Of a DNA stretch of 64,000 nucleotides, positions 5,001 to 63,937 are shown piece after piece. A program made the position numbers and the translations under genes. This stretch comes from Pegea sp. RAD2-039 (lineage: Eukaryota > Chordata > Thaliacea > Salpida > Salpidae): the NCBI GenBank assembly GCA_034620365.1, contig JAQGEQ010000061.1:186001-250000 (forward strand). The letters run 5' to 3'. Every line of letters begins with the position of its first letter. Position 1 is the first letter of the stretch. The notes beneath the pieces are model-generated. The model was given only the letters and a program-made list of their open reading frames with translations, ran no database searches and was not told the origin of the DNA.

Positions 5001-5736
5001 GAATGTTGAGCGTGTTTGGTTACCATGGTGAGTTTGGATATTTTACTTGTCCCAGTAACCACCTCTACGACCCGCAGACCGTCCTCATGGCCATGGAGAA
5101 ATTCACTTTAACCAGGTCCGAGTCCCGGTCCGCAACTTGATCCTAGGCGAAGGCCGAGGATTCGAGATTTCTCAAGGACGGCTTGGGCCAGGACGTGTCC
5201 ACCACTGCATGCGGTCCATAGGTAAGTAGAATAGTCCGGAGGTTTGAGATCTGATAGCATTGTATCTAGGACTTGCTGAAAGAGCTTTGGAGCTATTTGT
5301 GAGTAGAGCACGGGACCGGAAGACTTTTGGCAAACTTCTTCTAGATCACGTGAGTCGATGACCTCATTAGATGACGTCATACATGACTGCAGTGATTCTA
5401 CAGCAAGTGGTACGTCACAAGTTGGCTGAATGCCGAATCGCGATTCATCAATGTCGATTAATGACGTTGCATTGTGCTTACGTCATCGATGAGAAAGGAA
5501 CACGGGTTGCTAGGAAACAGATTGCTATGATTAAAGTTGCGGTTCCCCGAATGCTGTGTGACGTCATCGATAACACGATCCAGGTACACGGTGGGGCGGG
5601 AGTGAGTCAGGACTTTCCACTTGCTCAATGGTATGCTGCAGCCAGGACACTACGACTAGCAGATGGACCAGATGAAGTTCATCTGGACACAGTAGCTAAG
5701 TTAGAGTTACGTCATCAAATAAAGGCTAAGATCTGA
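2065..5736 (+). CDS. ACAD11: ACAD11-like protein: phosphotransferase-fold domain fused to acyl-CoA dehydrogenase
   Basis: ACAD10/11-type enzymes combine an aminoglycoside-phosphotransferase-like kinase domain with a FAD-dependent acyl-CoA dehydrogenase and act in fatty-acid catabolism, including 4-hydroxy acids. The first ATG is at 2065. The kinase half reads [20 protein letters not shown], then the Brenner-type loop HGDYSLLN near 3482 and [18 protein letters not shown] near 3600. A linker with [10 protein letters not shown] leads into the dehydrogenase half: [11 protein letters not shown] near 4850, [19 protein letters not shown] (5070-5150), [27 protein letters not shown] and [10 protein letters not shown], ending KIKAKI-stop at 5736. 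There are more than a dozen exons. The intron at 5350-5403 is needed to restore the family sequence around [19 protein letters not shown]. Exons before about 4400 are AT-rich with longer introns; later exons are GC-richer with ~50-nt introns. ACAD11 is favoured over ACAD10 because no HAD hydrolase domain is seen upstream. Confidence in the family is high; individual junctions are hand-phased. Confidence 0.92.
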
Positions 5737-5770
5737 TCCAAGATCTTGGTCCACGATGAATAATTAATGC

Positions 5771-5776
5771 AATAAA
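5771..5776 (+). terminator. Poly(A) signal AATAAA of the ACAD11-like gene
   Basis: An AATAAA hexamer lies 35 nt after the stop codon and is followed by a T-rich stretch. Confidence 0.6.
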
Positions 5777-5949
5777 AATTTTTTCTCGATAATTTGCTGC
5801 AATTTTTCGTTTGTTGAATAAAATTTGATTGGCTTCTATGATTTACAACTTTGACTACTGTGGACTCAATTGGAGCTTGTCAGAATGACAATGAGTTATT
5901 CTCATGATGAGTCCATTTTTTTATTTCCAAACCAATAATAATACTAGAG

Positions 5950-6240
5950 ACATGCTTCGGCCGAGATTGCGTGTGCGGGATGTGCTTCGAGTGACAATGT
6001 TAGAAATAAAGCAAAACACAGAGATGTAAAAAAAGAGTCCTTCGAGTTTCTTTGAAGCTGTTTTTTCTTCTCTATCCTTCAATTGTTTGCAGAGTAGAGA
6101 GCGCCATTCGGAGCGATCTGATGCGATATCTTCCAAATTATTTTCAAACCAATACATAGCAATTAATGAAGAAGCTCGCAGCCTCATTAGAGTCTTAAAA
6201 TAAAGAAAGTAATTTATGGAATGATTATTTATTGAACTTG
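5950..6240 (-). mobile_element. Degenerate LINE-type reverse transcriptase tail
   Basis: On the minus strand an open stretch reads NNLEDIASDRSEWRSL followed by CKQLKDREEKTASKKLE. This resembles the extreme C-terminus of non-LTR retrotransposon polyproteins, where a '...DR..WR.L' block follows the reverse transcriptase. Only this tail is recognisable. No RT catalytic motif or endonuclease is present, so it is a dead 5'-truncated copy. SINE copy 1 begins immediately to its right on the other strand. The call rests on one short motif and could be wrong. Confidence 0.35.
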
Positions 6241-6242
6241 TT

Positions 6243-6545
6243 TGTCTCCGTAGTGTAGCGTGTCTCCATATTTGCGACAAGAAAAAGTATATAAAGAACC
6301 CAGGTAGAAAAGTCTTGTTAGTCTGGTTAATGAAAACACTTCAGAGACACAAAACTCCGAATTTAAAGCCAGAGTTGGAGTCTCATAGGTAGTTTGTCGC
6401 TGTACTCAGCTTCTTTCTATGAGCTCATGAGACGCCAGCTGGGCGTAGCTACATCAGTCCGTCTGTTCCGCTACATATCCTGGCTGGCGTGGAGAGTTAG
6501 TTAATAGCATTAGTCTTCAGCTGAAGCGGGCCATTCTTGTTGAAA
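6243..6545 (+). mobile_element. SINE copy 1 (tRNA-derived head partly deleted)
   Basis: This copy aligns by eye with 38066-38334 and 49175-49520. It keeps the start of the tRNA-like head (TCCGTAGTGTAGCG, A-box-like), lacks the B-box part, and continues with the shared spacer (CGACAAGAAAAAG) and body (AAAACTCCGAATTTA, then GACGCCAGCTGG, then CATCAGTCCGTCTGTTC, then CTGGCTGGCGTGGAGAG). The ACGCCAGC and GCTGGCGT blocks are perfect reverse complements about 50 nt apart and could form a hairpin. It ends near GAAGCGGGCC. Confidence 0.75.
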
Positions 6546-18004: not shown

Positions 18005-20316
<2,312 letters not shown>

Positions 20317-23242
20317 GCTCCAAGACATCGTAAAACATGTACAAAATGTTTTTGCACTGTGCAATTAAATCAAGAACTTTTTTCACTTTGTAATTATTTC
20401 TTTTTCTTATTTATTTATCTTTCAAAGTCTTTTCTATTTTCTGTCACTGATTTTGATCTGATAACTTCCAACATGTCATATGTTTCAATGTAGCTGCTTA
20501 TTGTTGGTTGTTGTACTTTATCATTTCAGTATTTATCATTGATTTCAGCAATTTCTGTTCTGTGCTTTTGTAATTGATTTTTGTACAAATAAATGATGTG
20601 AAAGAAAATTAATTTCAGAAATGTTTTGTTTTTAATCTATTCAGCTATTCATCAACTAAATACGAATAAGGATGATCAATTAATTGACTTTTATTTTTAT
20701 TCAATTTATTTACAGACTATTTTTTAGGTTATTTTTTTCACTTCAAATTTATATTTTATTAAAAGATTGCAAAACCTTTATTCAGTGGGAGGCTTCATTG
20801 GGATTATCCTCTAATCTCATAAAATGATTTATTATCTTGCAGATTTCAAATTCGTTGAAGAAACTTTTTAAATAATTGTTTTATTCAAACTATTTCACAA
20901 AAAGCAAAAAAACTCGATTTTATGTTTTTCACTTTTGAAACAATAAAAGTTGTTTTTTATTTTAGAGTTTTTATTTAGAAATTTCAGTTTATACTTTAAT
21001 CACAATTACAAAAATATTTCAACATTCACTTGAAATAGCATCTCAGTTGGAAATTTGTTCTAATTTCAATTAATTTTGAGTATAGAGCGAGACAAAATTA
21101 GTCTCACACAAAAACAGAAAAAATAAATCTTCTATTTATGAAAAAAATATGGAAACACAGTACATGATAATAATTCAAATATATATGTTCAAAGTTTAAA
21201 TTTTTCTGATTAAAAACATATCAAAATAAGTAAAAAAATACTTTCAAAGAAGAAATTAATGAATTCTTGAAAACAAAACAGGAGTCAGTTTAAATTCTGC
21301 TTTTTCAATGTGATAGAGTTTTTTAGTCAATATGTAAATACAATTAGTTATTAAATTAATTGAATATCTACTTAAAATGCTGAATTTTAAACTGTTTGAA
21401 AAATTAACTGATTTCAGCATCTTACTAATATTTATTTTAAGAAATTTTGATAATCGATATTTTGATTATAGACTTATAAGAAAATTGATGAACTGAATTT
21501 TTTCATAAAGTTTGAAAGTTTTTTATTTTAGTTGAATACTACTACTAATTGAAATATCTTGTACATCAATTAATCGATTTTATTAAAATTAAAAAATTTA
21601 ACGTTTAAATGGAAAATTCAATGACGTCATCTTTTCTGCTCACAGTATTCTAGTTAGTGAACAAAAGGAAAATTAAAAAAATTAATTAAAACATTTGCTA
21701 GGGTCATTAAGGCAAATGGTTTCATTAAACTAATTAGCAAGTTATTTGTTTTCTGCTTAAATCTATATTTTCATAAATTCATTTTTCTGGTAAAATTAAA
21801 TAATGTTATTGATTTTTTTAATAATCGGAATAACGACAATCAAAACTTACAATAACAATTAATGTTGTGACTCAATCAACACTTATCAAAACCTATTGAT
21901 AAACTCTATTCTACTTAGTTGTTAATTCTACATTTTATCCATCACTACAGTGACGTTAGCAAATAGAATGATTTTAAAACTTATTTTCTTAATCAAATTT
22001 TCTTACTATAGCAAAAAAACCTCATAAAACGACTAATCATTATTCACATAAGATTTTTATTTATTTTCATCAAATTTGAAGTTGAATTTTGTGTGTTTCG
22101 AATATAAGATTGCTGTTTGTATACTTCAACATCCTCTTCTTCAACAAATTTCCAAAATAAGTTCTCTTTACCCCTCAAAAATTCGACCTGATTTTCGCTG
22201 CCAACTTGCGCGATGTCGTCTTCTTCCACTCCTTCCGTGATGGAAGTTTGACATTGGGTAATATTTTATGATCAAAGACTTTTATGGTTACTCATTACAA
22301 CCTCTTATCACCTTCAAGGACTTTCTAGAAATGTTTGAAAACATCTGGGGCTTGAAATCAAGTCGAGCCACTTTTATTTGAGATTACTTCTCGAGCTTCT
22401 ATGGAGTCAAATGAGATATATTAGGATGTAATTGTCAAGTTTTGTATCTCTATAGCAACACTAGGGATAATAACGTCTTGAAAATTGTAATTTGATTTTT
22501 GACGACCGTTTTTATAAAAGTCAGAATTGGTTACAATTAATATAGCGTTTTTTTATTGTAAGTATTGGATAGTCTTGCTATTGTTATCTGGGAAAACGAG
22601 ATATACAAAAGCATTTACAATTTATTCTCGATCTTGCAAAGATTTTAATAAAATTTACTAATAGTTTAAATTTCTTCGTAGTAGCCACCTTAATTTTTTT
22701 TAGTTTATTATTTTCTACAATAATTTTTTAGTATCAAGCAAACAAAAATGTCTAAAAATTACTTTTCTTTTAAGTAGAGTTTAAAAAACCCATTTTGTTT
22801 GTTCATGTTTCAAGCTGTTTTTGAATGTTTATAACGATAGTCGTTCAAATTTTCAAATAAATTTGAAATGAAAAAAATTCAAATTTTTTTGCTCAACTTT
22901 TAATATTTCTTCAAAAAAAAATTCTGTCAAAAATTAAAATTATTTTCTTTTTAAATAATTATTTATTTACAACTTTTTAAATGTTGGAAATAAAGTATTT
23001 TATTATTTGTTTAATTTCTAGTTAACTTAATCAAATAAATACTTTATTCATTTTTACTGTTTATAATTCTACTATAAAAAAGACAAATTTATTAAATCTG
23101 TTTTAGAAAAGGAATAAATAATTTGAATTTTGTAATGAATAATTGATGTGTTAAGAAAGGAAATATTCTAAATGACATTTTTTAATAAAAACTTTTAGAT
23201 TGAAATTTATTTTTACAAAAATTGATTTCGTCATTTATTAAG
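20317..23242. other. AT-rich intergenic DNA
   Basis: Includes the PPP1R16 3' UTR (AATAAA at 20588-20593). A less AT-rich patch near 22050-22480 has a minus-strand open frame (GTG start at 22229, EEDDIAQVGSENQ) with no recognisable family; I do not call it a gene. The rest is unremarkable desert sequence upstream of the coiled-coil gene. Confidence 0.45.
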
Positions 23243-26160
23243 ATGGAAGAGGAATATGACGAACAGATTAAAGAGCTTCTATCGGCTGGAAGAAGGCTTG
23301 GAACAGATCCTATTTCATTGAGCTCAATTTTTTATGATCAATCTGAAGTAAAAAGTAAGATATTCAAATTATTTACATTTTCACTTAAAATTTTTGACTT
23401 TTGAAGATGAACTGATGGAAAAGTTTCAACTGAATCATTTAGCTTCAACTTCTTCAATAGATCATTCACTTGATCTGTCTCTTGATGCTTCTACAGCAAA
23501 AAATACAATTGCTAATAAATGTGTTGATACAAATGTTGACAAGTATTTGGTGAGTTAATCAATCAATCAATTGAATCGAGGAGTTTTTCATTTAGATAAC
23601 TTCACAGAAAGAAATTGAATATTTGAAGAATAAATTAGAAAATAAAGAAGAAACAGAAGTGGAAGAAAAAAAGGAATTTCGATCAGTTGTGGAAGGATTA
23701 CAAACGAAATTATTTGAAGCTGTCGTGTCTAAAAGAAGATTGATGGATGATCATAAAGAAGAAATAGAAGAGCAAGAAGTGATTCTGAACAATCTACACG
23801 TGAGTTTTTCCACTTGATATTTCAAGATGAAGATTTGATGATTCATAGGAGGCAGTGGATGAGTTAGTTGCGACAAATGAGAAGCAGGAAGCTTCACTAA
23901 TTGAAGCTTGTGGACAAATTGAATTTGTTGTTGATGAGAAAAGCAAATTAGAAAAATATTTAGATGAAATTCGATTAATTGTTCTATCTGAGTTAGACTT
24001 GGACGGGTATATTTAATTGAACTTAACATCATTTAATTTTATTTGATTGTAGCAAAAAAGTGATCACTTTAGACGAAATGATTAAATTATTAGGAAACTA
24101 TCTAGCAGATGTCAAAAGTAAACTCTTGTTGCTTCAACAAAATTATTTGGAATTAAAAGATATCGAAAAAGTAAATTTATCTTATTCAATTCTAAATAGA
24201 AATCTAACAGCGACATCTAGCGACGGAAATTAATAGTTTGTTTTCTCAGAAACGGTCTTTAGATGAAGAGAAGACGGATGAAGTGACAAAGAAGGTCTGA
24301 AGATGAACTAAGATTACAAATTTCAATTTTTTTTTTATTTAGTTGAAAATTTTGGAGCAGCAAAAAGATGATTTCGAAAAACGGATGCTAGAAGAGGAAA
24401 AGATGAGGAGACAGATTGAAGAAGAAGATTGCAGATTGAAAGAAGTAGAGATCAACATCCAAAAAGATATTTTACATAAATATGTTCTTAGAGACTTCAT
24501 CACATTATGGAAGAGCTTGAAGAAGCAAAAAAAGAGATGAAGATCAAAAATGAGATGTTTGAGGAACTAAAGATTGAAAAGATCAAGTGAGTCTTGATTG
24601 ATAAGATCTGATCTTAAATAAGATGTCACATGATTAGATTACAAGAAGAATTAGTGAGGCGTGAAGGAAGGTTCTATACGCAGCGAGATGTCGACAAGAA
24701 AAGCAGTGAAGTGGAACAGATCGTGAGAGCGGAAGTGATGACATCATCAGTTGGTGATGACGTCATTTAAACTTTTCAATGTTCAGAACGCAGAAGAAGT
24801 AAAAAAGATGAAAGATCAGCTGAATGAGATGAAGGATCAAATGGAAGAGACACGGAAGAATGAAGAAAATCGAGAAGCGCGATTTCGTCGACTTCTTGAT
24901 GACGTGAGTGATGACGTCATCATTGCATCGTCATTGATTTGATCGACGCAGAAAGAGCAAATTGAAGAAGAAAAAGAACAGATAATGAGAAATCTCAAAT
25001 CGTGTCTTAAGGATGTAGAGGAGCTTAAGATGAAAGATCAGAAGAGCATCCAGGAGTTGAAGATAGTAAAAGATGATTTGGAAGAATTTGAAAAGAAGAT
25101 GAAATTTGTGGAAGATGAAAAGAATAATTTAAAAATTCAATTGGAAACACTGATAAAGACTTCAGAGCAAGATAGAAAGATGTTGAAAGAGTCACGTGAC
25201 CAGGAAGAGCAAGAAAGATTGAAAGTGATGAAATCATCAGCGGAAGTTGAGAAGAGTTTGATTGAAGCAAGATCACAAGTAAGACACAAATTGATTTTTA
25301 TCTGATCTTGATCTGATCCTTCAAAGATTGGATACTTGATTAAAGAACGCAGCAACATTGAATATCAATTGAAGGAAAATAAAGAAGATTTCGAGAAATA
25401 TATTTCATGTTTGATGTTAGAGCATAAACAGAGATATAAAGAGATGCGATCCGTGAAGGTTTTAATCTACATCCAGGGACATTTTTATTGAAATTTTGCT
25501 GTTTAGGAGATCGTGGAACAATTAGGACGAAATGAGGGAGGACTGTGTGAGGTCGCTGCTTCCATCCAACAACAGATCACGACACAGAGGACTGAGAAAG
25601 ATTTGATGGAAGGAAAGATACAAAAAGCAAAAGAAAAGTAAGATGTGAGTTGATTGATGTGATGTTGAAAGATCCTACATCTTAGGATCGCATCTCTGAC
25701 CAAAGAAAAGAAGAAGATCAGAAAGAACTTCTTCAAACTTTTATCGAAATTCGAAGAGCTGGAAGAAGAGTTGAAACAAACTAAACGGAAGTTAGAAGAT
25801 GAAGTAAAGAGTAGCCGGAAGTAAGAGATGAACTAGCTGAGACTTGATTGGTTGATGATTTGGTGATGTAGACATCAACAGACATCTGATCGTTTGAGAT
25901 GTGGATTGGAACAAGCGATCTTACGTCACAATCAAGCTACATGTTTATTTGAACAATTCTCAGGAATCAATGAAACAAGCCGGAAGTTGATCTTGTTAAA
26001 TCAACAAAGATCTTCAGAATGTTTACAGGTGTCTTACATCCTCCTTTTCTACATTTCTATCTAATCTCATCTTCTTCAGATTCTTCCAAAAAATACCTCA
26101 CCCGCTCAACTACTGATGATGACGTCACACACGCAACGCGACGCGTCACTTAACGAATGA
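23243..26160 (+). CDS. Long coiled-coil protein of unknown function
   Basis: ATG at 23243 (MEEEYDEQIKELLSAGRRLG). About 16 exons, mostly split by ~45-60-nt introns, give roughly 680 residues. A short acidic, serine-rich N-terminal region (DHSLDLSLDASTAKN) is followed by almost continuous Glu/Lys-rich heptads, for example NKLENKEETEVEEKK, EKRMLEEEKMRRQIEEED and MRNLKSCLKDVEELKMKD. There is a short non-coil tail (SPAQLLMMTSHTQRDASLNE-stop). No motor, CH, kinase or membrane segment was seen. The stretch IEFVVDEKSKLEKYLDEIR with ITLDEMIKLLGNYLADVKSK faintly recalls CCDC158-type proteins; I do not rely on it. A 46-nt intron at 24445-24491 is required to keep the coil in frame. The last exon contains a coding TGACGTCA. 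The gene converges on URB1, with 47 bp between stop codons. Confidence 0.8.
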
Positions 26161-26167
26161 ATCGATT

Positions 26168-26173
26168 TTTATT
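26168..26173 (-). terminator. Poly(A) signal of URB1 (minus strand)
   Basis: TTTATT on the plus strand, i.e. AATAAA on the minus strand, 35 nt past the URB1 stop and only 8 nt past the stop codon of the opposing gene. Confidence 0.6.
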
Positions 26174-26191
26174 TTTTGTGAATTTTTCAAA

Positions 26192-26197
26192 AATAAA
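26192..26197 (+). terminator. Poly(A) signal of the coiled-coil gene
   Basis: AATAAA 32 nt past the stop at 26160. Together with the minus-strand signal at 26168 it makes the two 3' UTRs overlap in antisense. Confidence 0.6.
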
Positions 26198-26207
26198 ACG
26201 AACATAT

Positions 26208-29200
26208 TTATGACGTCATTAGCATCATCTCCACAGCCTCATTAGCTTCCATATCCTCATCATCTGTAAAAATGTCCCAATCAAAAGCAGCATGTCAAGA
26301 TAAACCAATCAACATACCTAAATCGTTTCCACTTCCAAATAAGCTTCGAAGGATTGCGTAGAGGATCTGGAAGCAAGCTGAGAGCAGTTCTTTAGTGATG
26401 AAGATCTTTTTCGATTGTTTACTCACATTTTTTTGTGCTCATCTTCATCTGGCTCGTATTTATGACGCAATAAATCGATTCAAGTCGGCTTTTGATTGTC
26501 GGCTTCGCGATGCTGATGACGTCACAACGTGCTAACAACCACTTCAGCATCTTTTCTGCTGTTTCTTCGTCACGCTCCAATTGACAGTCAAAAACAGCGC
26601 CAATGACGTCATTGACAAGAACGGTGTCGTCAAATCTGCGAAAGAAAGTAGATGAGCGGTTGGTAGGGAAGAAGGGTCGTGTGGGGCACCTTGAAGGGGT
26701 CCAACAGATGAGAAAACGCGCAAAAAGTCGCTGATGTTCACTTGACTCGTTTAGAAGTTGCAAGCAACAACGCACGCGTTCTGACGTCATCAACGGCTCT
26801 TCTGAAATCTTTAAAATCATTTGAATGTTGGAAGACATCGAGATCAGATCTTCAGACTCAGAGCAGTGAGGCAACAACTCAAACACAACTGCCACTAGGT
26901 GGTTCCACATACGAAACGACTGTGGTGACGGTTGCGTAGTAACGCGCGATGCAAGTGACTCGCAAATAGTGGTGATGACGTCACACATGTCAGTGGCGCA
27001 TTCGCGTCGCTTGCTCGAATCGACCCGACAGTCGTATGTGACGTCATAACCATGACGAATAACTTCACGCATCCAGACAAGCAATCCTCCTTTGTTAATG
27101 AGCTCTGAAAGAGCATGAGGAATCGTACAGACTTTTGCGAGCACCTGAGGAGCATGTGGGGTGAAAATGGGGCGTTATAGTCAAGGGCACCTACTTGTAG
27201 AACTTGTGCACGTGATGTGTTGTCGCTTAGCAACGAGTCGTAGAAACACATTAAAGTGCTAACCACTTGGCGGCGCTCGATCACATGGAAGTCGCGCGTG
27301 TCGCAAACACCGCGTTGTAATAAATTGAGCATCCAAGATCGATGAGACTTGAATTGAAGAGAAGAATTGAAAAAGAAGATGAAAAACTCCGGAAGATTTT
27401 CAACATCCAATTTCGGTTTAACCAACAAAAATTTACTAATTTGTCGAAAGATGACGTCATACTTCATCTGTAAGTTCTGACGTCATTACACTGACGTCAT
27501 CATCTCATATGCCCTCACCTGTGATATCATATGGATGTAGCAAGCAAGGAATGACGTCACAACGCCGGGAAGACTGTGAAGTCCTCCGGAGTAAGATGAT
27601 TTGGTGATTGAGTCTCGAATTAGTTCGATGACGTAACACAGAAGCTCTTTCTCAGAGAAGCGCGCGGTTTCCAGGTGTTCCTTGTAGCCCCAAAGACAGA
27701 GGGCCGCATATGATCGGATTTGTGGGCAATGTGAAGATAAAGAAGCCACTAATAAAGTGACCAGACCACTTCGAAGCACCAATCGACAATCAATCAGATG
27801 ATCAGGATTGAAAAGAGGAAGTAAAACCGGAAGTAGAAACGTCGGGTCGTACCTCGTACCATCTATGACGTCATCATCGTAACGTCGCGCCACTATTACA
27901 TCATTACTCTCTCACCTGACTCAATGACGTCATCATCCATTTTGCGGCGGATCGGGAAGTTGTTTAAAGTCTCTTCGAGGATAGTTGAGTCGAAGCAAGC
28001 TGTGAATGGGGCGTGAAAGGGGGCGCGAAAAAACAGGGGAACCTACCGATAATGTTGCCCATTCCAGCTTCTTTATAAACTGTTGACTTCAAACTGCTGT
28101 TGCTCAGTTCAATTGAGGAGTTTCCCCATAGAAACGGTCGAAACGTCGAGAAGTCAATGACGTCACTAGCTTCATATAAACGGATAATCTGTAAAGAGGA
28201 AGATCATATTGGGAAGCGAGAAGAGGTGACGTCACTTGCTTTTAACATCAACTGATCATTGTGTGATAAAGTTGCTGAATAAGATGGAAGTAGAAACTTC
28301 AAGTCGGAGGTTTGGAGTTGATTACATCTCGGAATAATCCGCAGAAGAAGATCTAGCATAGAGGATTTGATCTTGGGATCATCACTGTTCAACATCAGAG
28401 GTAGAAAAACTGAATGTGTCTTGATCATCTCATAGAAGATATCAGGAGATAAAAGATCAGATGAATCAGGGATGTAGAGAAATCGAAACATCTCATCAAG
28501 AAGATCAAGAACCTCCACAACATCCAATCCAATCCTAAAACAATCATCAATTAGATCACAAACTCATCAACCAATCACAGCGCTTCTACTTCAGCAGTTT
28601 TCGCGCCAAAACGTTCCAATCAGATGATAGAGTTTTATGTAAATTGCTTTCAAATTCATCTGGAATCAATTTGTTCATCTGTAGTGACGTCATCATCAAC
28701 ATCTCGCGACTAGTGACGTTGTCATTCGATATCCTCAACACCAGTGACGTCAGTTGTTTGATCAATTGAATTCTACAAACAACCATTAGCCGGTCGTTAC
28801 CATGACAAACCACTAACCTGAGCCGATCACGTGATTGGTCGTCAGCCAAGCGCGTCCACAACTTCTCGCAATTTTCAAATCGATGACGTAGAACGATGAC
28901 GTCATCAGTTATATGCGCAATCGAATCGATGAGAAGTGACGCAAAGTCGGAAAGCTCCTTACCGCTCTTTGCTTCCACCATGCGATCGACAACTGAAGCA
29001 AATGTGACGTCATCGACCGACCGGTTTGCTTGGCTGTTAGTCACCTGTTCTGATGACGTCATCATCGACAGAAGTCTTGATTTTGTTTAGGCAAAAATCC
29101 CAAAAGAAATCTTGAATGAGAGAGGATTGAAGCGGATGTGAATGGGACACAAGTCGGAGGAATCGAAACTTGGTGACGTCATCAGTGACGGAAGTGACTT

Positions 29201-40374: not shown

Positions 40375-41964
40375 ATGGAATTCTTAAATCTTCCTGATCC
40401 TTTATCTGCAAAAGATTGCAAGTAAGATGATGAAGTATTTCTCATCCACTAATCTTTAATCTTTTCAGTTCATTTGCGTTTTCCACAATCTCTAGGCGTC
40501 TTCCTCAAATTTTGGCAGTAGCTGTTGACAGTTGTCATCGAAAAATTACAAGTTTGCAGCAACAACATCAAGAGGTGAATGATAAGGATTTAATAAGATT
40601 TATCAAAAGATGAAGATTTAATGTATAGGCAGGAAGACAGGATGGTTTGAAGGTTGTGAGCAGATTATCTCGATTACGAAATAGAGTGATGACTGATAAA
40701 GAGCTGGAACCGTTTGAAGATGATTTTGTTGATATGGAAAGTTGGAAGTTGTTACTCAAACAAAACACGTTTGTAATCATTTTCTTCTTTCCCGCCAAAT
40801 CTAACCAGTCAAATGTTTATAGCACACCTCAAAACAAAGCCACGTGGTTTCGATCGGATTGGTTGTTGGTTGAATGTTACATGTATCGCTACATCCAACA
40901 TTGTCTTCTTCAAAGGTCTCAAACTCTTCCTCATCTTCTCGATGTTGATTTTGTATCTTGCAGCAAGTTTTGTCGAGATTTCGATCTTTTTGCTCAAGTA
41001 AAAGAAGAATCGATGCTGAAGTCACGTGATCGCCTTTCCAATCTTGCTGCTAATTTTCTGCATCCTGATGACGTCACTTCGGTGAAGAAGCGCTTTGTCA
41101 CATTTTTTAAGGTGCTCCTCGATACGCTATATTTTTTCTCGTTTTAATTTCACCACCAGATGTCGCTGTGGGCCAACCGCGCTGATCTTTCGCTCTCTGC
41201 TGCCTCCAGTGGATCTTTGAGTAAAATTTTGGAAGAGTCTTTAGATGAAAATCTTCTTGTGGATGATACTGAGCTTATCTGGAATCATCTCAACCAACTA
41301 CGGGATTCAGGAACAAAGGTGTCCCTGAAAATCTCCTTTTGCCCCAAATTACTCTTTAAACTTTTAGGTGAAATTGGGAGTGATCTTGGACAACTTTGGA
41401 GCAGAATTCTTCTCGGATCTGATCTTATGTGACTTTCTCCTTTCACAAGGATTTGCTCATTCTATTCATCTATTCCCAAAATGCTTCCCGTGGTTTGTGA
41501 GTGACGTCACTACGCGAGATTTCACAAAAATGCTTGAGATGCTGGCTGAGAGCGGATGTAAGGATCTGAAGGATTGTGGGATGAGATGGGAGCAGTTGAT
41601 GAAGACAGGGACTCTTCTATTTGAGCAAGATCCTTCAAGACTTAAATTCTTCACTACAGCACATCCTTATTACGTCATCAATCAATCAGATGCAGATCTT
41701 GCTCATCACTTATCATCTTTTGATCTTCTGATCTTTAAAGGTGATCTCAACTACCGTAAGCTGGTTGCTGACCTCAACTGGGCACCAGAAGTCCCTTTCA
41801 GGGATGCCCTGTTGGGTTTTAAGCCCGCCCCGTTTTGCACATTGAGGACATTAAAAGCAGATGTGGTTGTTGGTCTAAAGCTGGGTCAGGCCCAGACTGT
41901 CCAACAACAAGATAATGATTGGATGGTCACGGGCAAGTATGCAGTCATTCAATCGCTCATATGA
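40375..41964 (+). CDS. ARMT1: ARMT1-type damage-control phosphatase (DUF89 family)
   Basis: DUF89-family metal-dependent phosphatase acting on damaged sugar phosphates such as fructose-1-phosphate; the family member ARMT1 was also reported as a protein carboxyl methyltransferase. ATG at 40375 (MEFLNLPDPLSAKDC). Seven exons read on through NKATWFRSDWLLVECYMYRY, SLWANRADLSLS, then the active-site block LDNFGAEFFSDLILCDFLL near 41390, PWFVSDVTTRDF, LLIFKGDLNYRKLVADLNW near 41740, PAPFCTLRTLKADVVVGL and WMVTGKYAVIQSLI-stop. The Asp-Asn pair, the FSD aspartate and the KGDLNYRK motif are all kept, so it should be active. Introns are about 50 nt. AATAAA at 42019-42024. It converges on ELAPOR. Confidence 0.95.
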
Positions 41965-42018
41965 CGTCATCGCCTATGTGACGTCATCGCTTGATTTGCT
42001 GTGTGATTTTGAAAAGTG

Positions 42019-42024
42019 AATAAA
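42019..42024 (+). terminator. Poly(A) signal of ARMT1
   Basis: AATAAA 55 nt after the ARMT1 stop codon. Confidence 0.55.
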
Positions 42025-42096
42025 AATCGAAATCGTAAAAATGTATTTTGTGCAAATCACGTGACTACAAAAGATGAAGACAGCTGGATAAGAATG

Positions 42097-42179
42097 ATCG
42101 ACGACGACGACGACAACAACATGAATCTCATTGAAGCGGAACAAAATTAGTGAAGCGGAACAAAATTAGTGAAGCGGAA
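42097..42179. repeat. GAC microsatellite and 19-bp tandem repeat between ARMT1 and ELAPOR
   Basis: A short CGA/GAC run (about 42099-42115) is followed by two full copies and one partial copy of TGAAGCGGAACAAAATTAG starting at 42132. They lie in the gap between the convergent genes. Confidence 0.8.
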
Positions 42180-42210
42180 CGTATACAGGAATGAAATTAG
42201 TTAGACATCA

Positions 42211-45200
42211 TCAGTGATTAGATTTTGATTTGATGAAGATTTGTTCTGAAAAAAAAAAGTTATAAATTTGATTTTCTTCTTTGGTCATCATGATCACCTT
42301 GTTCCTTGATCTTTGAAAGATCACTTTATCTTCATCTTCAGATTGCTCTGAATCTGAATCTTGAATAGCACAGCTACCAGCAGAAGGCGCCAACTGACCT
42401 GATTTCATCATCAACTTTTGATATTTATATTCCAATCTGCAACCACGTGATTAGCTCAACGGGAAAGTCCCTCAAAAGAGAAAAACGACTTTTTAGTTCG
42501 TTTGTAGAAAAAGCACGCGATCAAGATGAAGATCGGGACACAGATCACTGAGATAATGACGATAAGACGCACAACATCAACACATCCTTCTAATTGATCT
42601 TCCGGAAGTTTCACGCCTCCATAGCAACGTGATGGATACTGTTTCCATAGAAACCGCTTTCGGCGTACTCCGCTCAAGCATGATGATGTCACAACATCGT
42701 AATCAGCGTCCGAGCAAAGTGGACAGGCCTCCCTACCCTCCCATAACAGATGATAAGTGCATCCATCACATGTGCTGTACACGCACTGCCTGTCGCGCAG
42801 TTATGACGTCATGTTGACTAGTAAACATCATTAGTGATGACGTACTGTGGAGATAAGAGAGATCCGATCTTATTATTGGGATCACACCGAAGATGCAAGA
42901 AGACGCTTCTTCCTGATGAGCACCATCTCAACAAGTTTGTGTTGTTGTATCTGAAATTTCATCGTGACGTCATCAACCGATTGCATGACGTCATCATGAT
43001 CTCACCGTAAATGGATGATGACGTCATCATCGCTGATATTTGCCTTACTGAACGGGTTGGTGGGTAAGTGTTGGTTGTCATGGTGATAGATACCGACCAA
43101 TTGATCCGCAAGTAGTGTGGGTTGTGACGTCATCACATCCTGTCCAGTCTGGATTAGTAAGGAACGACAAACCATCCCGCTGATGACGTCATCATCGCGA
43201 ATTGTCGTCATGTTGTTGAAACATTGCGAAGTCGGCTGAAAGTAAAAACCGCTAGAAACTCTTTGATCCTTCAACTGATCCCACCTCACCTGATCTCCAC
43301 ACAAACTGATGTTGAAGATAAACTTCAATTCGTTCTTATGATCGCGTGTTACTTTGTTAGTAACCGTTGCTACGAGGTTTGAGCCTAAACCGCGAAAGTC
43401 GAACACCTGTTGTGTCTGGATTACGTCATCAATTAGAGTTTACATCAGTGATGACGTCACAACTGACCGCGGGTGATCGGTAAGTACAGTTAGTGACACA
43501 TCGAGTGTGTTGAGGGTTGCTGGTTGTTCCTGGTCCACATCGTTCACACTGGTTGCCATGGAGATAAGTGTTGTCAGGACAACTTACGCAACTCGCTGTT
43601 TGTGGGTCGTTAAAGTGACCAGGTGGACAGGGCAAGCAATGATGGTCAAATACGTCACCATGGTTACGACACGAGTGACAACTATCAGCGACTCCACCAA
43701 TCACATTCGTCGCTTTGACGTAATAAATGCGAGCGACATCAAGTGGATGCTGTTAATGAAGTGATGACGTCACTACCGCGATATTTGTTAAAATCTCACG
43801 CTTTTTTGAAAGATCCATGAGAAAGCTCCTTCCATCGCGTTAGTCGTGACGTCATAGACATAAGCTTGTTTTGGTTGTGGACCTGTCCAACTGTTGATGA
43901 CCCGTTCCATGCCATCAAAGTTCTGACGTCATAAGTGATTAGTGAAATTTAGTGACATCCAATCTTAAGTAGATACTTGTGTGATGAAGAGCTGACAGTC
44001 TTCTTCACATTCAGTTTCAAATTGAAATGAGATTGTTCCAAAGATGTCCTTGCCTTCCTCTAATCCGTAAAATCCTTTTTTGAGTTGTAAGGTAAGAATC
44101 AATAAGTCTTCAGCTGTTCCACTGAAAATTGTGTGGATATGATCGGTAGTTGGAAGCCAAGTCTGCGGAAATCAAAGCCTAAAAAGCTGGTCAAAGTTGG
44201 TAAAAATTGCCGACCTTGTTGAAACAGTTAGTAGTGAAACACGAAGTGGTGAAAATATCGGGAAGTCGATTCCAAGATTGGATCCAGTAGCCAATGTTGG
44301 GTTCAGTGTTAGCTGGACACTTCTGGCAAGCTGAGAGAAGTTGATTGGATTGTTAGAAGATCATTTACTAACCATTAGTTCCATTTGAGAAGCTATTTTC
44401 AGGGCATCTTCTGCATCGACTATCAGATTCTTGTTGAAATCCTGGATTACAAGGAAGACATCGGATATTAATTGATGGAAGAGGAAGTTTAACGGATTTT
44501 GGATGCAAAAGAAGACACCTAATTGGTTGAATCCATTCATAAGATGCGTTCATCTTCCATTTTAAGAAGATTAGGAGATGATTAAAGGAACAACAAATGA
44601 TCTCACCAAATTATTGACATCACAAATTGAATGAAGGACCAAAAAATCATGTTTCGTGCAAGGAGGTCTTTCAATACAGATCTCTGATCCACGAAGTGAA
44701 TAATGTGTGTCTTTATCACATCTTTTACAATAATTTGATCCAGCAGAGCTCCATGTATCAGCCGGACATGTCAAACAAGAGCTCTGTTTTTCATCAGGGT
44801 TGAAAAATCCTCCTTTACAAGGTCTACATCTTTGATGAAGATCAGATTCTACTCCTGATGTAAATCATCTAATCAATATGAATCTTGTTGCTTAGCAACT
44901 AATAATCACCATCAATTTGAATAACCGAGATTTTGACAGGACTCAACTTCTTGCTATTTTCCAAAAGAAGTCCATTGACACTCCAAAAGAATCTGTAAGA
45001 ACCTTTACTCAGCGCCACCTGGTGACAAATTAATAAAGAAATGAGGACAAAAGAGCAGCTTACCTTCCATTCATTCCAATGAGCTCCCGTTGTATTGAGG
45101 AAGACATAACTGTTATCAGTTTGTAATCTTCTACATTGATCATCTTCAATCTACATCAGTTAAAATGAGGATCAAAATGAGAATCTTAGAGATCAACTTA

Positions 45201-45844
45201 CATAGAAATGGAAGAGTAGATCATTATCAGTATGTCTGTATGTAAATGAGATGCTACCATCTATCTGAAGAAGAGCTGAATACATCAAGCGACTCGCACA
45301 ATCATCACTATTTGATTGGATGTAGCTCCCAACTGGTTTCCAAGTTGATTCAGAACAGTTTGTTACTTTAGTCTCATATCCAAAGTCAGAAAGAGTAATT
45401 GTTTCAACAGAGTAACTGAATCCAGTTGGAAGATGATTCCATTCATCAAATCGAATCCCAGATCCAATAGAAAAAGATCCTGGAGGACAACTCTTGCAGT
45501 TTCCATCTTCTAAATCCCAAAACTCTCCTGGCTGACATCTAAATCCTAAAGAAGAGTAATTAAGATCTCAATTTGATCATAATATGAAGATCTTACCACA
45601 TGCAGGCGCTGTTTCACCTACTTGAGCCACTGAAACTTGACATCCAACAATCTTTGGGACCTTAAACTTCCATCTAGAACCATTTGGATCACATTCTGTC
45701 AATGTCATCCTAGTCTCATTCTAAAACAAATCTTGTTTAATATCAAAATAGAATTGAGCAGCTGCGTACTTTTTCACATTCCCGGGTGCATCTGCTTCCA
45801 TCAAATAGATGAATCAGAAGAAGAAGGAAATAAACTTTCTTCAT
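42211..45844 (-). CDS. ELAPOR: ELAPOR (EIG121/KIAA1324-type) endosome-lysosome transmembrane protein
   Basis: Type I membrane glycoprotein of endosomes and lysosomes linked to autophagy and trafficking. ATG at 45844 with a signal peptide (MKKVYFLLLLIHLFDGSRC). The ectodomain matches the family in order: NGSRWKFKVP, GEFWDLEDGNCKSCPPGSFS, GIRFDEWNHLPTGF, DDCASRLMY, then cysteine-rich GCC2/GCC3-like modules (CPADTWSSAGSNYCKRC, CLPCNPGFQQESDSRCRRC, CSRNHGDVF-type region, CERCGPGTTSNPQHTRC). Near the membrane is TCDGCTYHLLWEGREACPLC. A TM segment (VVRLIVIISVICVPIFILIA) precedes a short cytoplasmic tail with LEYKYQKLM, as in the vertebrate proteins. The gene is intact. Introns are about 50-100 nt. 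The C-terminal half is GC-richer and full of TGACGTCA; the N-terminal half is AT-rich and has none. Confidence 0.93.
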
Positions 45845-57234: not shown

Positions 57235-57289
57235 TTCAACTAATCATTTAAATCTGAAAAACAAATTTCAACTCAAACTGCTTCTGACG

Positions 57290-57758: not shown

Positions 57759-57764
57759 TTTATT
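57759..57764 (-). terminator. Candidate poly(A) signal of the receptor kinase gene
   Basis: TTTATT on the plus strand about 260 nt beyond the receptor-kinase stop codon. It is plausible but not unique in this AT-rich DNA. Confidence 0.3.
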
Positions 57765-58024: not shown

Positions 58025-61000
58025 TCAATTGACATTTGGTTCGAGTTTAACAATAAGATCATTTTTGACGTCACTTCCTGGATCTCTTTCATAGAACGCT
58101 TTCTGGGATCCCAGATGAACTTCTCCTGATTCATTAAAAGTTGATTCCTGCTTCATTGGAAGTAGATCACGCGTCAAAGTGACGTCATTAGAACTGCTGT
58201 CGACTTCTCTAAGAAGCTGTTGGATCTTTTGGAAGCTTGGACGTTCATGTGCTTCCCACTGCCAGCATCGGATCATAATTGAGTATCTGTTGGAAGTATT
58301 CAGCTTCAAAAGAAGTTGTTAAGATCTTCAGAAATACTAGAAGTCTACAGAAGACCAGTAATGTTTCAATTTGTCATCTTCTAACTTTTAGGACATACAA
58401 ATTCAAGAAGATATCTTAAAAGTATGTCCTGGATAACTTACAGATGATCGGAGCAGGATGTTGGCTGCTTCATCCGGATTCCTTCTTTGAGCATCTTGAA
58501 GATCGCAAAACTCTCTACTGATGGATAAGGAGTGGATCCCAACGTCACCATCTCATATAAAAGGATTCCAAAAGACCATCTACAAAGTGATGACGTCATT
58601 TGATGTAATTGATGACGTCACTTACTGATCGCTCTTTAACGTAATCGGGACTTCTCCTCCTCTCATTCGCTCAGGACTGATCCATCTGAAGGGAACTCGC
58701 CTCTCAGTAGCTCCGCGGATCACTCCATACCGATAAACATCATTTGCGAGTCCGAAGTCACAGATCTTACAACTCAATCCCTAAACATATCAGCTGATGA
58801 GGTCACAATCGCTTTTCAGCGACAGTACCTCGCCGACAAGGATGTTTCTGGCAGCAACGTCACCGTGGATGATTTTCCATGACGATAGAAACTCCAAGCC
58901 GCGCGCAACTTGACTTCCAACGTTATAAACACTTTGTTCAGTGAAATTGAAGACATCTTCAGACTTTCTCATCTCTGGCTGCAAACGAAGATCAATTAAA
59001 GCAATATTTGGCCACCAGAGGGCGATTTACAGACGTCACGTGCGTTCCACAAGACGTGTAAGAGATCACCGAAGCGCATGAACTGAGTAATGAGAAGGGG
59101 GGCAAGTTGAGAATCGTGCTGGGAACAGATTCCAATAACCCCGAGAATATGATCGTGTTTTCCGATTGAAATCATCAAATTAATTTCAGCAATAAAATCA
59201 CTTCGATAAATTGCCGAATAAGCTCCAGTCAGTGACTTGACAGCGACTGTGACGTCATTTCCGTCATCATGTTTTAACGTCGCTTTTTGAACGATTCCAA
59301 AGTTTCCTCTTCCGATAATATCATCTAAAAAAAAGTTCAATTTTTGTCAGTTTTTGGCCAGTTGTCCAGATTCAAACCTGAAATATCTAAATGGTCCGAT
59401 TTGATTTCCCATTTCTGACCCAAGGCCGCGACCACCTCTAATTTCTTTGTAGGTTGGGACGGAGGGCCATATTCAGTGAGTTGAGGGTCGGGCTTGCTCG
59501 GAAAGAATTTCGAAAACTTCAAATCCAACTTTCTATGAAAAAAATAAATATGAAAAAAGAAGTCATGAGAGGTTGCCGAACCTTTCTCGGAGCTGTCGAT
59601 ACTTCCAGATGATGTAAATGACGACACAGGATGCGATGATGCCCACCGGAACCGCTACTGCAATCGAGACCACCAAACTTTGGTCTCTACAACCTGTTCC
59701 TGTCACGTAACCATCACCTGTGTAACCCTCCCTAGCAACAATCAAATTGGTAGTGCACCACTAGTTGCTAGGCAACAAGTAACTCACGGACATGAACAGT
59801 TGAAGCCGTTACTTGGAGGTGAGAAGTCGGTACAGATGGCAGATGATGTACAAACGCCCTGAGCTTCAGTCAAGCATGAATTGAAATCAGTACATCCTGT
59901 TCCTCCAACTAAATCGAGGCGGATGCCGTTGCCATGGAAACCAGAAGAGCAGTTGCAAATGGCTGCAGTAGCGTCATCGGGCTGTAGATCGAAGCACGTG
60001 ATGTTGTCGACGCAGAAGTCTGTCTCGCAAGCGTTGATATCTAAAGTCACGTGAGTAATTAAGACTAATTACTTGTGAGATAAAGAAAACGTGACGACGT
60101 TATCAGCAAGTCGTCACGTGATGATATTCAGAGAAAGTTTAGCAATTAAAGATTTTATCGAAAATTTAATTGAGTGAAATTGTCCAACCTTCAATGTAAA
60201 TACTCAAATTAGTTTGAGTTCCATACTGCTCACAATTCATCCAATTACGACACTTCTCGCCCTGCCTCGAAACATATGACGTCACTTGTATGACGTACTC
60301 CTCGCCATATCTTAAATGATCCATTTGTAGTCTATAAAATGGATCTTTTTCCTCTTCTAAAGAAGATTTTCCTACCTATCAATAAAGAGATGTCTGTGTG
60401 GTCCGCAACCAGTGGCAGGTGGTCCACTTACCACAATCGATGAATGAAGTTTCGCTTTTCTACTCATCTCCTTAACCAGGAATCGCGTCACCGATTTATT
60501 AGCTACTACGTCATAAGGCGACTTCCATTTTATCACCGCCGATATCTCATTGTTGATTAAATCTGGTTTCAACTGGTCCAAAACAAGACTGCTTGCTGGA
60601 CCAGCAGAAATAGACAAATCTGTGACGTCATCAGGATCAAACCACCGTAACCACATGACGTCATACTCACCACTAATTTCTTGAACTATGTCACAAAATT
60701 TGAGAGCTTTTGATTGGTCGAAACCGAGATTCTCGATTAAATGATGTCCGCAGAAGACACTTACTCCACCCAGAGACACTTCTGTCGATTTATCGGCGCT
60801 CAAAGCTCGATAAGCGACGATTCGAAACTCGTAATGACGCCCGAAGCTTGCTGCTAGCTTTACACTTCGTTCTTCCTGGTGTACATGTGTTATGACGTCA
60901 TGGTCATAGTGACGTGGCGATTACCTTAGGTAGCGGTTTGAAGCTGTCATAGATGTATCTGCAGATAGATGATGAGTCACAGACGCCGTATTCGTGTACA

Positions 61001-62113
61001 CATGGCAACTGGCAGCGATCAGTCGTTCCGTTGATGGTGCTGATGTAGATTTCGACGTCATCATCGCACCTATGACGACATAAATCTCTTCTCAACCACG
61101 TGACTCACAACGTGTTGGTTTTGGGGGGTGAAGGGTTGAAACATTGATTTACTTCGAAACATTTTATCAAATAATTAAGAAACATTTCGAGAAGTTTAGT
61201 GGTGCTGATGACGTCATCACTTACAGTTGCGTTGAAGTGTTGAAACCATCTTCAAGCGAAAAGTCCGGTTTCCCTGACAACAAATAAAGTTTGAGAATCA
61301 GAGATGAAAAATCAGATCTTACCAATCTTCATCTTGTTCATGTTGATGATTGACACTTCGTCTGTGTCTTGTAATCGATACAAGAAGCCATCTACTTCTG
61401 GTGACGTCATAGGCTCGACTTCCCACTCATAAGTGACCAGCAGTTGATGTTGGGACAGGTCGGGCAAATGGTCGAAGGTAAAACTCGTGGACAGGTTGCT
61501 TATCCTTACATCCAAGCTTTCTGAAACCAAACAACTTTTTAAACTTTCCGCCAAACCACTTGTGCTGATTGCTACGTCATCACTGGCTACATCAGCAGCA
61601 GCGTGATAGTTTATTTCCGGTGAATGAAACTGATTAAAAGATGAACAGCGCGAATGTGACGTCACGCCTGCGACGCTTACGGCTATTTACAGCTGAAACT
61701 TTGATATGAAATAAATCTTCACCAAATAAAAATCTCAGAAATCAAATCTCGAGAAAAACTTCTGATCTTAGAATCATCAAATCTCATCAACTGACTCTTC
61801 TGTCCTATCAAGCAACTAAACAGTCCATTTACTAAGTTGTCCACTGAATAACCTATCAACTGAATCATTTATCTACTAATTGAGGGTCAACTAACAAACG
61901 TGTTCAACAACAAACCTGTTTAACAACTATAAATTGATCAAATAATCAGATAATTTGTCTGTAAGATTTTACAGCTGATAAAAATCGTCTCTTACCTGAA
62001 TTATTTCCACATTTTGGATAAATTTGAGGCTTTGTTGATTTGATAATAACAAGAAAAATCGAAAAAAATAAAAAAGAAAAAAATTGGTAATAGCATCTAT
62101 CAAGTGTTCTCAT
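58025..62113 (-). CDS. Receptor tyrosine kinase with FN3-like and EGF-like ectodomain
   Basis: Single-pass receptor kinase. ATG at 62113 with a signal peptide (FFSFLFFSIFLVIIKSTKP). The ectodomain begins with a serine-rich segment and a region with FTFDHLPDLS and LLVTYEWEVEP. Fibronectin-III-like stretches (HYEFRIVAYRALS, YGEEYVIQVTSYVS) and cysteine-rich EGF-like repeats (DINACETDFCVDNITC, ICNCSSGFHGNG) follow. TM segment: SLVVSIAVAVPVGIIASCVV. Kinase: glycine loop GRGNFGIVQKA, VAVKSL lysine, catalytic loop HGDVAARN, KICDFGLA, VPFRWISPERMRGGEVP, SDQWSFGILLYEMVTLG, and RCWQWEAHERPSF. The C-terminal tail ends KLEPNVN-stop at 58025. The usual HRD arginine is glycine, while the catalytic aspartate, DFG and lysine remain, so activity is likely but activation may differ. 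The ligand and vertebrate orthologue are not identifiable. Introns are about 45-60 nt with a few longer. Confidence 0.9.
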
Positions 62114-62367
62114 TTCTTTAAACTTGATCACTTTCAGCTCTACTTGTGATAGTGAAATACATTTGAGCAACAACCGCTAATTACCAGACAGATATTTGCT
62201 ACATGAAACTATAAATTAGCCGCCTGAAGAAAAACTTCTCAAAGCAACTTGTCAGTAAGCAACTAGTAAATTGCCTTTTTCATCAAAATACTTTTCTGGC
62301 GTTTCGCCATTTTGACTTCAACTATTTTGTCTTTTTCAAAGAATCACGAAATTTTCAGCTGATGGCT

Positions 62368-62373
62368 TTTATT
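62368..62373 (-). terminator. Poly(A) signal of the BTBD17-like gene
   Basis: AATAAA on the minus strand, 24 nt beyond the stop codon at 62397, and about 255 bp upstream of the next gene's start on the same strand. Confidence 0.5.
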
Positions 62374-62396
62374 AGTGCTGTTTCTTAGCAACCAGT

Positions 62397-63937
62397 TCAC
62401 TTTTCCACATTTACTGACCAGGTCCGAATAATGACCCCAAGCTTAAGACCAGCTGGACCAGCTTGACTGACAGCGACCTGAAAATCTGCGTCGCTTATGA
62501 TATTATCGATGGCATAATACTCCTGTCCATTATGCGGTCCATGTAGCTTAGTTGTGGGACCATGAGGTGGTCGATGGTGGCTTGTAGGGTCCTTTACTGA
62601 CCTATTCATATCTCAAATCGTAATTTCACGCTTGAAAGATTTCACAAAGTCACCTCTGATTGTTGATTGGTGACGTCACTCCACCAACAAGCGAATTTGA
62701 CCTTACCGACGCTTCAAGCGCGCGAAGTAGGCAAGCCTTGCGTCGAAGTCGAAGCTGAACTCCTCCGCCTCGTTTGTAGATCAGAATCGAGACATAGACC
62801 TTCAAATCGTTGTCGAGTGGCTTCTACGTCATCAACTCACTCATTATTGCCCTCTAGTGGTCAAAAATAAACCTTGAGGATGATGACGATGTTGAGGGTC
62901 TCGTAGTAGCGACGCGGTTGAATCTCCCATCTTCCTTCGTCGAAGTAGGCCGACGGGGCGGGTTTCTTCTGTTTTGATGGGTTGTAACTGATCTGGGCAC
63001 AGTATTGTTTGCTCGTGTAATCACGAGGTAAGTAGCTGTTGTCAGCGAAACTGCGGTTTTCCTTCGATAAGATCTGATATCTGATTGGATGATGAGAAGT
63101 GAAAGATGAGTGGTTGTCATGGTTACCGGTAAGCATCGCTCAAGAAGCTTGTGATTGCAGATTTGAAGGTTCGAGCTAAAGCTGATTCCTCGACAGCTAG
63201 TAATTGAGATCCTAACATCTGTGAGAAGCGGATCTTCTGAAGACACTGAAAAAAGATGAAGATCAGGTTATAATCAGAGGAGATCAGATGAGGATCAGAT
63301 TAGGATCAAACAAAGATCAGATTAAGATAAGATGAAATTCAGAACAAAAGATCAGAAAAGATGATGTTTTACCGATTTTAGTTTTTCTTCTAAATCTTCA
63401 TCATCTTCTTCGGACTCTTTTCTTTGAACCATAAACCATCTTTGGAGAGCTTCAAACAAATAGAACTCATCGGGAACCAACAGGCAAGAACTTGTAAGAA
63501 TTGCTTCAATACAATCTACAGGGAGTAAGATCCAATCATTTGAATCCACTAATTCACTCATATAATCAGAGATCGCTCCATCAACACATTTCCCGGTCAA
63601 GTCCTTCGAATATAAGCAAAGAATCACAACTACCGACCCATGACCACCGAAACACAACCCCTGACACACAACCAACAAGTGACCACCAACTTACATGCAG
63701 ATGAAACCTGGTGGCGTACTTCAACCATTTAATTGAGTTTTTCAAATCTCCATCTTCAATTAAATTTGTGATGTAAGAATCACACGCGGTTCGAAGAGCT
63801 CCTACTTGATACTTGGAAGCAAGAACAAGTAAAGGGAGCGCAGAATCGCTGTTAAACGCGATTCGACCACAATAAAAGAAGCGCAAGAAGTCAGCAAAAA
63901 ACATCTCACAATCTTTCGTCTCTTGTAATTCCATTTC
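62397..63937 (-). CDS. BTB/BACK-domain protein, BTBD17-like (5' end outside the window)
   Basis: The first visible exon starts at an acceptor (63937), so the N-terminus lies beyond the window. It carries the end of a BTB domain (FFADFLRFFYCGRIAFNSDS, LLVLASKYQVGALR). Next is a BACK-like region (DSNDWILLPVDCIEAIL, FYLFEALQRWFMVQRKE, QLLAVEESALARTF), then YQILSKENRSFADNSYLPRD, which parallels the post-BACK segment of BTBD17. A later exon reads KPLDNDLKVYVSILIYKRGG. The last part (YYAIDNIISDADFQ, LKLGVIIRTWSVNVEK-stop) is in frame, but its junction near 62610-62700 could not be phased cleanly. BTBD17-type proteins resemble galectin-3-binding protein and lack Kelch repeats, as here. The family role is poorly known. 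The receptor kinase gene starts 284 bp downstream on the same strand. Confidence 0.72.

Follow-up and report, generated by a model that had tools for sequence, protein, structure and literature searches.

A CREB/ATF-site palindrome is iterated across a salp genome and concentrated in islands within genes

Results

We examined a 64-kb stretch of the genome assembly of the salp Pegea sp. RAD2-039 (contig JAQGEQ010000061.1, positions 186,001 to 250,000; the whole stretch is referred to here as the window). The window carries several genes and, in their exons and introns, many copies of TGACGTCA, a palindromic octamer that is the best-known CREB/ATF binding site (the cAMP-response element, CRE). 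Genes were modeled with a small dynamic-programming finder of our own, and Pfam matches supported the models of Npa1 (URB1), ARMT1, ELAPOR1, an acyl-CoA dehydrogenase, and a tyrosine kinase (Table 1). A second run of the finder split URB1 in two and placed an opposite-strand gene over ARMT1; the first models were kept there. The gene spans used for positions and densities below mix both runs, and the starts of the acyl-CoA dehydrogenase and coiled-coil genes come from the second.

TGACGTCA occurs exactly 70 times in the window, from position 5372 to 62678, and is the commonest of all its 8-mers. A first-pass annotation, made from the letters of the window, had estimated about 70 copies against about 0.6 expected; we computed 0.61 for independent bases, and 0.76 and 0.92 for Markov models of order 1 and order 2, respectively. 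The order 3 expectation was 5.1, a value inflated by the motif itself. One hundred dinucleotide shuffles of the window gave a mean of 0.72 copies and a maximum of 4. The annotation had also asked whether other 8-mers of equal composition are equally abundant: none of the 2,520 words with composition A2C2G2T2 is, as the next in rank (51 and 42 copies) overlap TGACGTCA and the best of the others reach 10. Across the assembly (105.7 Mb, 387 contigs), with the reversed word as a composition control, we counted 27,792 copies versus 969, a 28.7-fold excess; the 12-mer GATGACGTCATC occurs 3,824 times versus 4 for its reversal. The source genome is that of an animal rather than a cyanobacterium, with Wnt matches on eight contigs and spliced genes, and a COX1 search of the assembly for a mitochondrial genome gave no match. 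The enrichment of TGACGTCA is a genome-wide signature, tens of times above chance.

The enrichment is also sharp. Allowing up to one mismatch, the assembly holds 64,917 matches to TGACGTCA versus 28,668 to the reversed word, and the near-misses by themselves number 37,125 versus 27,699, only 1.34-fold more. The exact-to-one-mismatch ratio of TGACGTCA is therefore 21 times that of the reversed control (natural logarithm 3.1). We repeated the comparison on a sample made up of the window and thirteen 10-kb loci (L005-L017), of which L005-L007 were picked since listings showed copies there and the other ten by contig number; those ten hold 13 copies in 100 kb, with at least one copy in seven of them. 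In the sample, relative to a local second-order model, the ratio is 51-fold (natural logarithm 3.9). If gain and loss of copies were balanced, a simple model would imply a scaled coefficient of ∼3.1 from the control or ∼3.9 from the second-order model. All near-misses together number 90 in the sample versus 41.6 expected. The commonest is TTACGTCA/TGACGTAA (19 versus 3.5 expected), itself a bZIP-type site; TAACGTCA/TGACGTTA occurs 10 times versus 3.7 expected, and the products of CpG decay, TGACATCA/TGATGTCA, 18 times versus 9.7. The likeness to a genome-wide signature such as HIP1 of cyanobacteria, drawn in the first-pass annotation, is borne out by both the sharpness and the spread of the word.

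Preferences extend a short way beyond the octamer. Over 126 sites, we observed A or G at -1 (0.66 and 0.26), G at -2 (0.49), and T at -3 (0.58), with no clear preference past -3. The half-site is TGATGACG and the extended context TGATGACGTCATCA. As had been noticed earlier, the flanks extend the palindrome: GA..TC is the most frequent two-base flank (26 of 126 sites), a symmetric arrangement that fits a bZIP dimer. GATGACGTCATC, which contains the CREB site, is the preferred site of JDP2/ATF7-type bZIP proteins. Complementary flank pairs were about as frequent as independence predicts (68 versus 64.4 at -1, 42 versus 43.3 at -2, and 51 versus 50.5 at -3), the greatest departure being at -7 (41 versus 32.7). 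Relative to the gene strand, the flanks of the two half-sites were alike (65 and 63, 44 and 49, and 59 and 59 of 99 sites). Halves that are independent, and equal on both gene strands, suggest that TGACGTCA in gene bodies is read at the DNA level by a symmetric dimer. We rejected a palindrome-forming process such as hairpin correction, since the pairs at -1 to -3 are complementary only as independence predicts, and an RNA-level signal, since the two halves are alike relative to the gene strand. A bZIP_1 profile search of the genome returned 12 matches, among which basic regions resembling those of CREB, JUN, FOS, C/EBP, XBP1, and ATF6 could be recognized by eye.

Copies in the window fall by position into five groups of 2, 5, 32, 14, and 17. 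Across the sample, we delimited six islands by the motif itself (1-7 kb each), which hold 93 copies in 23.5 kb; 24 copies lie in the other 170.5 kb, where 0.8 were expected. Island edges lie inside genes, for example in URB1 and in the ELAPOR1-like model. Convergent gene ends were considered as the defining place and rejected: they fit two of the window groups, but in the kinase island the genes are arranged in tandem.

To place the copies along genes, we used those gene models whose start was reliable, 17 of 21. Density was 0.24 copies per kb over the kilobase preceding the start codon; inside genes it was 0.35 in the first half-kilobase and 0.24 in the second, and it rose to 1.13 at 1-2 kb, 1.68 at 2-4 kb, and 5.81 beyond 4 kb. 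The first kilobases of these genes thus hold 5 copies in 17.0 kb and the remainder 68 in 32.9 kb; in the window genes alone, 11.0 kb of first kilobases contain 5 copies and the remaining 20.2 kb contain 51. The 4 copies found upstream of start codons (in 16.7 kb) comprise three at the 3' end of the kinase gene and one in a neighboring model. In 11 of 12 copy-bearing genes, the mean copy position lies past the gene midpoint (Wilcoxon p 0.009). Gene length and copy density in the window were not significantly correlated (Spearman 0.48, p 0.11, n = 12).

According to the gene models, 42 of the 70 copies lie in coding sequence, 19 in introns, 2 span exon edges, and 7 fall outside the models; the second model of the acyl-CoA dehydrogenase shifts the copy at 5372 into an intron. 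Of the coding copies, 14 occupy frame 1 and 28 occupy frame 2, the two stop-free frames; in frame 0 the word would create a stop, and the emptiness of that frame is partly due to the finder barring stops. Within the window's islands, copy density was 4.82 per kb for introns, where 3,938 bp contain 19 copies, and 3.26 per kb for exons, with 39 copies across 11,947 bp. The exon/intron ratio of 0.68 (Poisson interval 0.40-1.25) is compatible with exclusion of the stop frame alone, for which 2/3 is expected. Because copies are no sparser in island introns than in exons, coding constraint cannot explain TGACGTCA, as had been argued earlier from copies in introns and in different reading frames. TGACGTCA accounts for 27 of the 52 Asp-Val pairs encoded by the window's island exons.

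Intron lengths bear on how the copies arose. Introns of at most 80 bp have a median of 52 and a mean of 54.6 bp with copies (n = 11) versus 51 and 52.7 bp without (n = 53), a comparison that omits five copies in longer model introns. Most introns are near 50 bp, and those of 46, 51, and 55 bp each hold two copies. That copy-bearing introns of this size are hardly longer argues that the copies arose by substitution, and we rejected insertion of a short element on these nearly equal lengths. The 16-base contexts of the 70 copies comprise 68 different sequences, 66 of them occurring once, and the flank preference ends about 3 bases out; the sites are therefore not one amplified repeat, the other alternative raised by the first-pass annotation. 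Genome-wide, a search for paired copies with starts separated by 10 to 40 bp gave 5,606 matches, a flat share of 181 per distance. Pairs numbered 466 at 20 bp and 251 at 25 bp, tandem arrays included in both; among the forward places listed, arrays accounted for 13 of 50 at 20 bp and 20 of 50 at 25 bp. A spacing of 20 bp, two helical turns, looks preferred, while strict 10-bp periodicity was not established.

CpG content differs between bins with and without copies. With the motif removed, the 18 of 194 1-kb sample bins that hold at least three copies have a GC content of 0.41 and a CpG observed-to-expected ratio (o/e) of 1.0, versus 0.28 and 0.63 in the 150 bins without copies. The latter ratio suggests that the genome is methylated at CpG. 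Although their o/e is ∼1.0, the copy-rich bins are not CpG islands of the usual class, given a GC content of 0.41 and a position downstream in genes rather than at promoters. Along eight site-bearing genes, o/e ran 0.72, 0.67, 0.78, 0.95, and 1.04, whereas along nine site-free genes it stayed at 0.62-0.72 throughout (motif removed). Exon o/e was 0.96 in islands versus 0.61 outside (motif masked).

A PF00145 profile search of the genome gave 11 matches, which appear DNMT1-like where inspected. Seven stop-free long open reading frames (832-873 aa) with a cytosine-methylase match, on contigs C57, C249, C32, and C52, are probably intronless retrocopies of a DNMT1-like gene; two of them lie ∼4 kb apart on C57 in opposite orientation. 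BAH and methylase domains were found in both methylase genes scanned. TGACGTCA is absent from the four methylase loci fetched (L018-L021).

Table 1. Groups of TGACGTCA copies, gene models, and copies of a second palindrome in the window
Feature	Position	Strand	Content and basis
2 copies of TGACGTCA	5372..5566		Near 3' end of acyl-CoA dehydrogenase model (+); Pfam Acyl-CoA_dh_1 8.1e-26
5 copies	19342..21629		4 in 3' half of ankyrin-repeat model (18005-20316, +; Pfam ankyrin), 1 downstream
32 copies, group	24758..31884		Coiled-coil gene model (+) and convergent URB1/Npa1-like gene (-)
14 copies, island	41069..43931		Convergent 3' ends of ARMT1-like (+) and ELAPOR1-like (-) models
17 copies, island	56388..62678		Gene without Pfam match (-) and tyrosine-kinase gene (-)
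URB1 (Npa1) model, 25 exons	26208..33318	-	Pfam Npa1 3.8e-16; 29 copies, first 1.4 kb empty
ARMT1-like model	40375..41964	+	Pfam; 2 copies in coding sequence, 1 across its end
ELAPOR1-like model	42456..45708	-	Pfam ELAPOR1 domains; 10 copies, all in downstream half; true 5' end uncertain
Tyrosine-kinase model, receptor-like by eye	58025..62844	-	Pfam PK_Tyr_Ser-Thr 3.5e-17; 13 copies
46-bp intron with two copies, not lengthened	58580..58625	-	Intron lengths
TCACGTGA	5346, 9482, 18617, 19703, 25192, 28827, 41022, 42057, 60047, 60114		Word count

Several repeats were encountered along the way. In tandem arrays with 20-bp and 25-bp units (C8:368056-368223 and C14:874420-875054), most successive units carry TGACGTCA. 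When we searched at the DNA level for a divergent duplicate of an island, we obtained a dispersed repeat and a young copy of part of ARMT1. The former, at window 38070-38270, is ∼200 bp long, with at least 40 further matches of 74-85% identity on many contigs (39 of 791 candidates scored). The latter is 343 bp long and 99% identical to an ARMT1-like exon stretch (window 41334-41676 versus C134:215673-216015, locus L024); it has one TGACGTCA at the matching place and is too young to show gain or loss. Overlapping words of GGATCAAGAATGATGAGGATC, probably a tandem repeat, are prominent among the enriched 8-mers of the sample, and window 48378-48482 is a tandem repeat of TGCTGGTTTACT (12-bp unit, 8.8 copies).

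Discussion

We propose, with a probability of roughly 0.4, that TGACGTCA is a CREB/ATF-type bZIP site maintained by weak selection on each copy, in those downstream portions of genes that are seemingly less methylated in the germ line. The reader would be a symmetric dimer, most likely of the CREB/ATF type, which would bind TGACGTCA within TGATGACGTCATCA in gene bodies, whether in the germ line or in the early embryo, and each copy would bring a slight advantage (scaled coefficient about 3 to 4). Copies would be created by point substitutions and retained wherever the DNA is open and little methylated, here seemingly the gene regions lying beyond ∼1 kb from the start, and the bound dimer would probably help those stretches to stay open and unmethylated. 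Methylation of the central CpG blocks or weakens CREB-type binding, so a feedback between sites and hypomethylation would give rise to islands. Candidate readers and modifiers appear to be encoded, namely CREB-, JUN-, and FOS-like and other bZIP exons, recognized by eye, and DNMT1-type genes. More tentatively, tens of thousands of weakly selected CREs may together act as a density mark that keeps the far parts of genes open and unmethylated, a bZIP-read animal counterpart of HIP1. None of promoter CREs, coding constraint, or mobile elements accounts for the distribution of TGACGTCA. The first-pass reading of a genome-wide signature with a bZIP-fitting flank, for which coding constraint is insufficient, stands; the islands, the depletion at gene starts, the origin by substitution, and the independence of the two halves are added here.

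Several observations weigh against this proposal. Some near-misses also exceed expectation in the sample, among them TGACGACA/TGTCGTCA (9 versus 2.1 expected) and CGACGTCA/TGACGTCG (5 versus 0.6). TGACGTCA is ∼30-fold over expectation even outside the islands, so the islands are a concentration and not the whole effect. The 5' depletion comes from few genes, and copies inside one gene are not independent; when genes with both ends reliable are considered, 6 of 7 lean 3' (p 0.16). With the motif masked, intron CpG o/e is 0.72 both in islands and outside, which weakens the link to methylation. Islands are also richer in GC, at third codon positions (GC3; 0.443 versus 0.369) and in introns (0.372 versus 0.338), and biased conversion could therefore contribute. 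Finally, the E-box palindrome TCACGTGA occurs 4,614 times genome-wide versus 237 for its reversal. We rejected it as a partner confined to islands: it is denser per kb there (9 versus 1.3 expected in 23.5 kb), but it is enriched outside too (12 versus 0.9 in 170.5 kb; two-strand counts halved). As it is over-represented in and out of islands, the cause may exceed one bZIP, and there may be a broader tendency toward certain factor sites.

The nearest analogue of TGACGTCA is HIP1 (GCGATCGC), which PMC4390886 describes as a cyanobacterial palindromic octamer, hugely over-represented genome-wide and of unsettled function. Both are exact palindromic octamers far above expectation, with the exact word far above its near-misses; TGACGTCA differs in lying in an animal, in being a CRE, and in its concentration in islands away from gene starts. 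The DNA uptake sequences of Neisseriaceae and Pasteurellaceae are, according to PMC1939737, likewise short words over-represented in a genome. They share this feature with TGACGTCA and serve natural transformation. We know of no DNA-uptake counterpart in an animal germ line.

Among the alternatives, the one that survives best is a conversion or repair drive that brings no benefit, in which heteroduplex repair is biased toward the palindrome, as has been suggested for HIP1 and DNA uptake words. Here, a dimer or repair enzyme at the motif would shield that allele and make it the donor. Conversion bias could reach a scaled strength of 3-4, which is the strength that a simple model implies here, and drive and selection, if equally strong, would produce identical counts. 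The copies ignore amino-acid content except for stops, and the raised GC3 and intron GC of islands point the same way. However, drive leaves the sparing of gene starts unexplained, the flank matches the specificity of bZIP proteins rather than that of a repair enzyme, and to our knowledge no sequence-specific conversion bias of such a kind is known in animals. On balance we consider drive unlikely, though well short of negligible.

It is less probable again that every copy is a classical regulatory CRE in an ordinary cAMP-response promoter or enhancer. The octamer is identical, a CREB-like exon appears to be encoded, and GATGACGTCATC shows the flank preference of JDP2/ATF7-type motifs. However, known CREs are few and promoter-proximal, whereas the copies of TGACGTCA crowd gene bodies, 29 of them inside one gene. 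Their density, measured from start codons and not from transcription starts, is lowest upstream and in the first kilobase and highest beyond 4 kb.

Slightly less probable still is the idea that an ATF/CREB protein makes the islands hotspots of meiotic recombination, with GC-biased conversion lifting their GC content. The precedent is M26 of Schizosaccharomyces pombe, a CRE-like word that acts within coding sequence and is read by an ATF/CREB dimer, Atf1-Pcr1 (PMC2677671 and PMC9775316); a CRE word is present here too. The somewhat higher GC of the islands would fit. However, the homologue serves as donor in break repair (PMC9775316), so a hotspot word should be erased rather than accumulate, and TGACGTCA is abundant. 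The same review also states that a CRE in ade6 was not bound by Atf1-Pcr1.

We give little credence to the palindrome as the target of a DNA methyltransferase or of methylation-directed mismatch repair. The methylases look DNMT1-type, enzymes that are expected to read CpG only and not eight bases, and the copy-bearing bins have undepleted CpG, the opposite of what heavy methylation would leave. In its favor are the several apparently intronless methylase genes, two of them with BAH and methylase domains on scanning, and the precedent of HIP1, for which PMC4390886 reports that mismatch repair dependent on methylation had been put forward as a model. A mobile or amplified short repeat and a coding or codon artefact can both be set aside: some 20-bp and 25-bp tandem arrays do contain TGACGTCA, but there is no common sequence past ∼3 flanking bases, short introns are not lengthened, and introns are as dense as exons.

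Among the titles listed in a search of the open-access literature, with subscription papers and preprints outside its reach, none describes TGACGTCA as an iterated genome signature in an animal; a search there for work on chromatin loops in early animals gave no match. The signature resembles HIP1 in being an iterated palindrome, but it belongs to an animal genome, consists of a bZIP site, and is spread along gene bodies. If the copies are selected, thousands of protein-coding positions would be dictated by a DNA-level signal, as for 27 of the 52 Asp-Val pairs noted above. If they are driven, this would be an animal with a sequence-specific conversion bias. Either way, with its exact sites and near-miss controls, TGACGTCA offers a clean test case for how DNA words shape genes and gene-body methylation.

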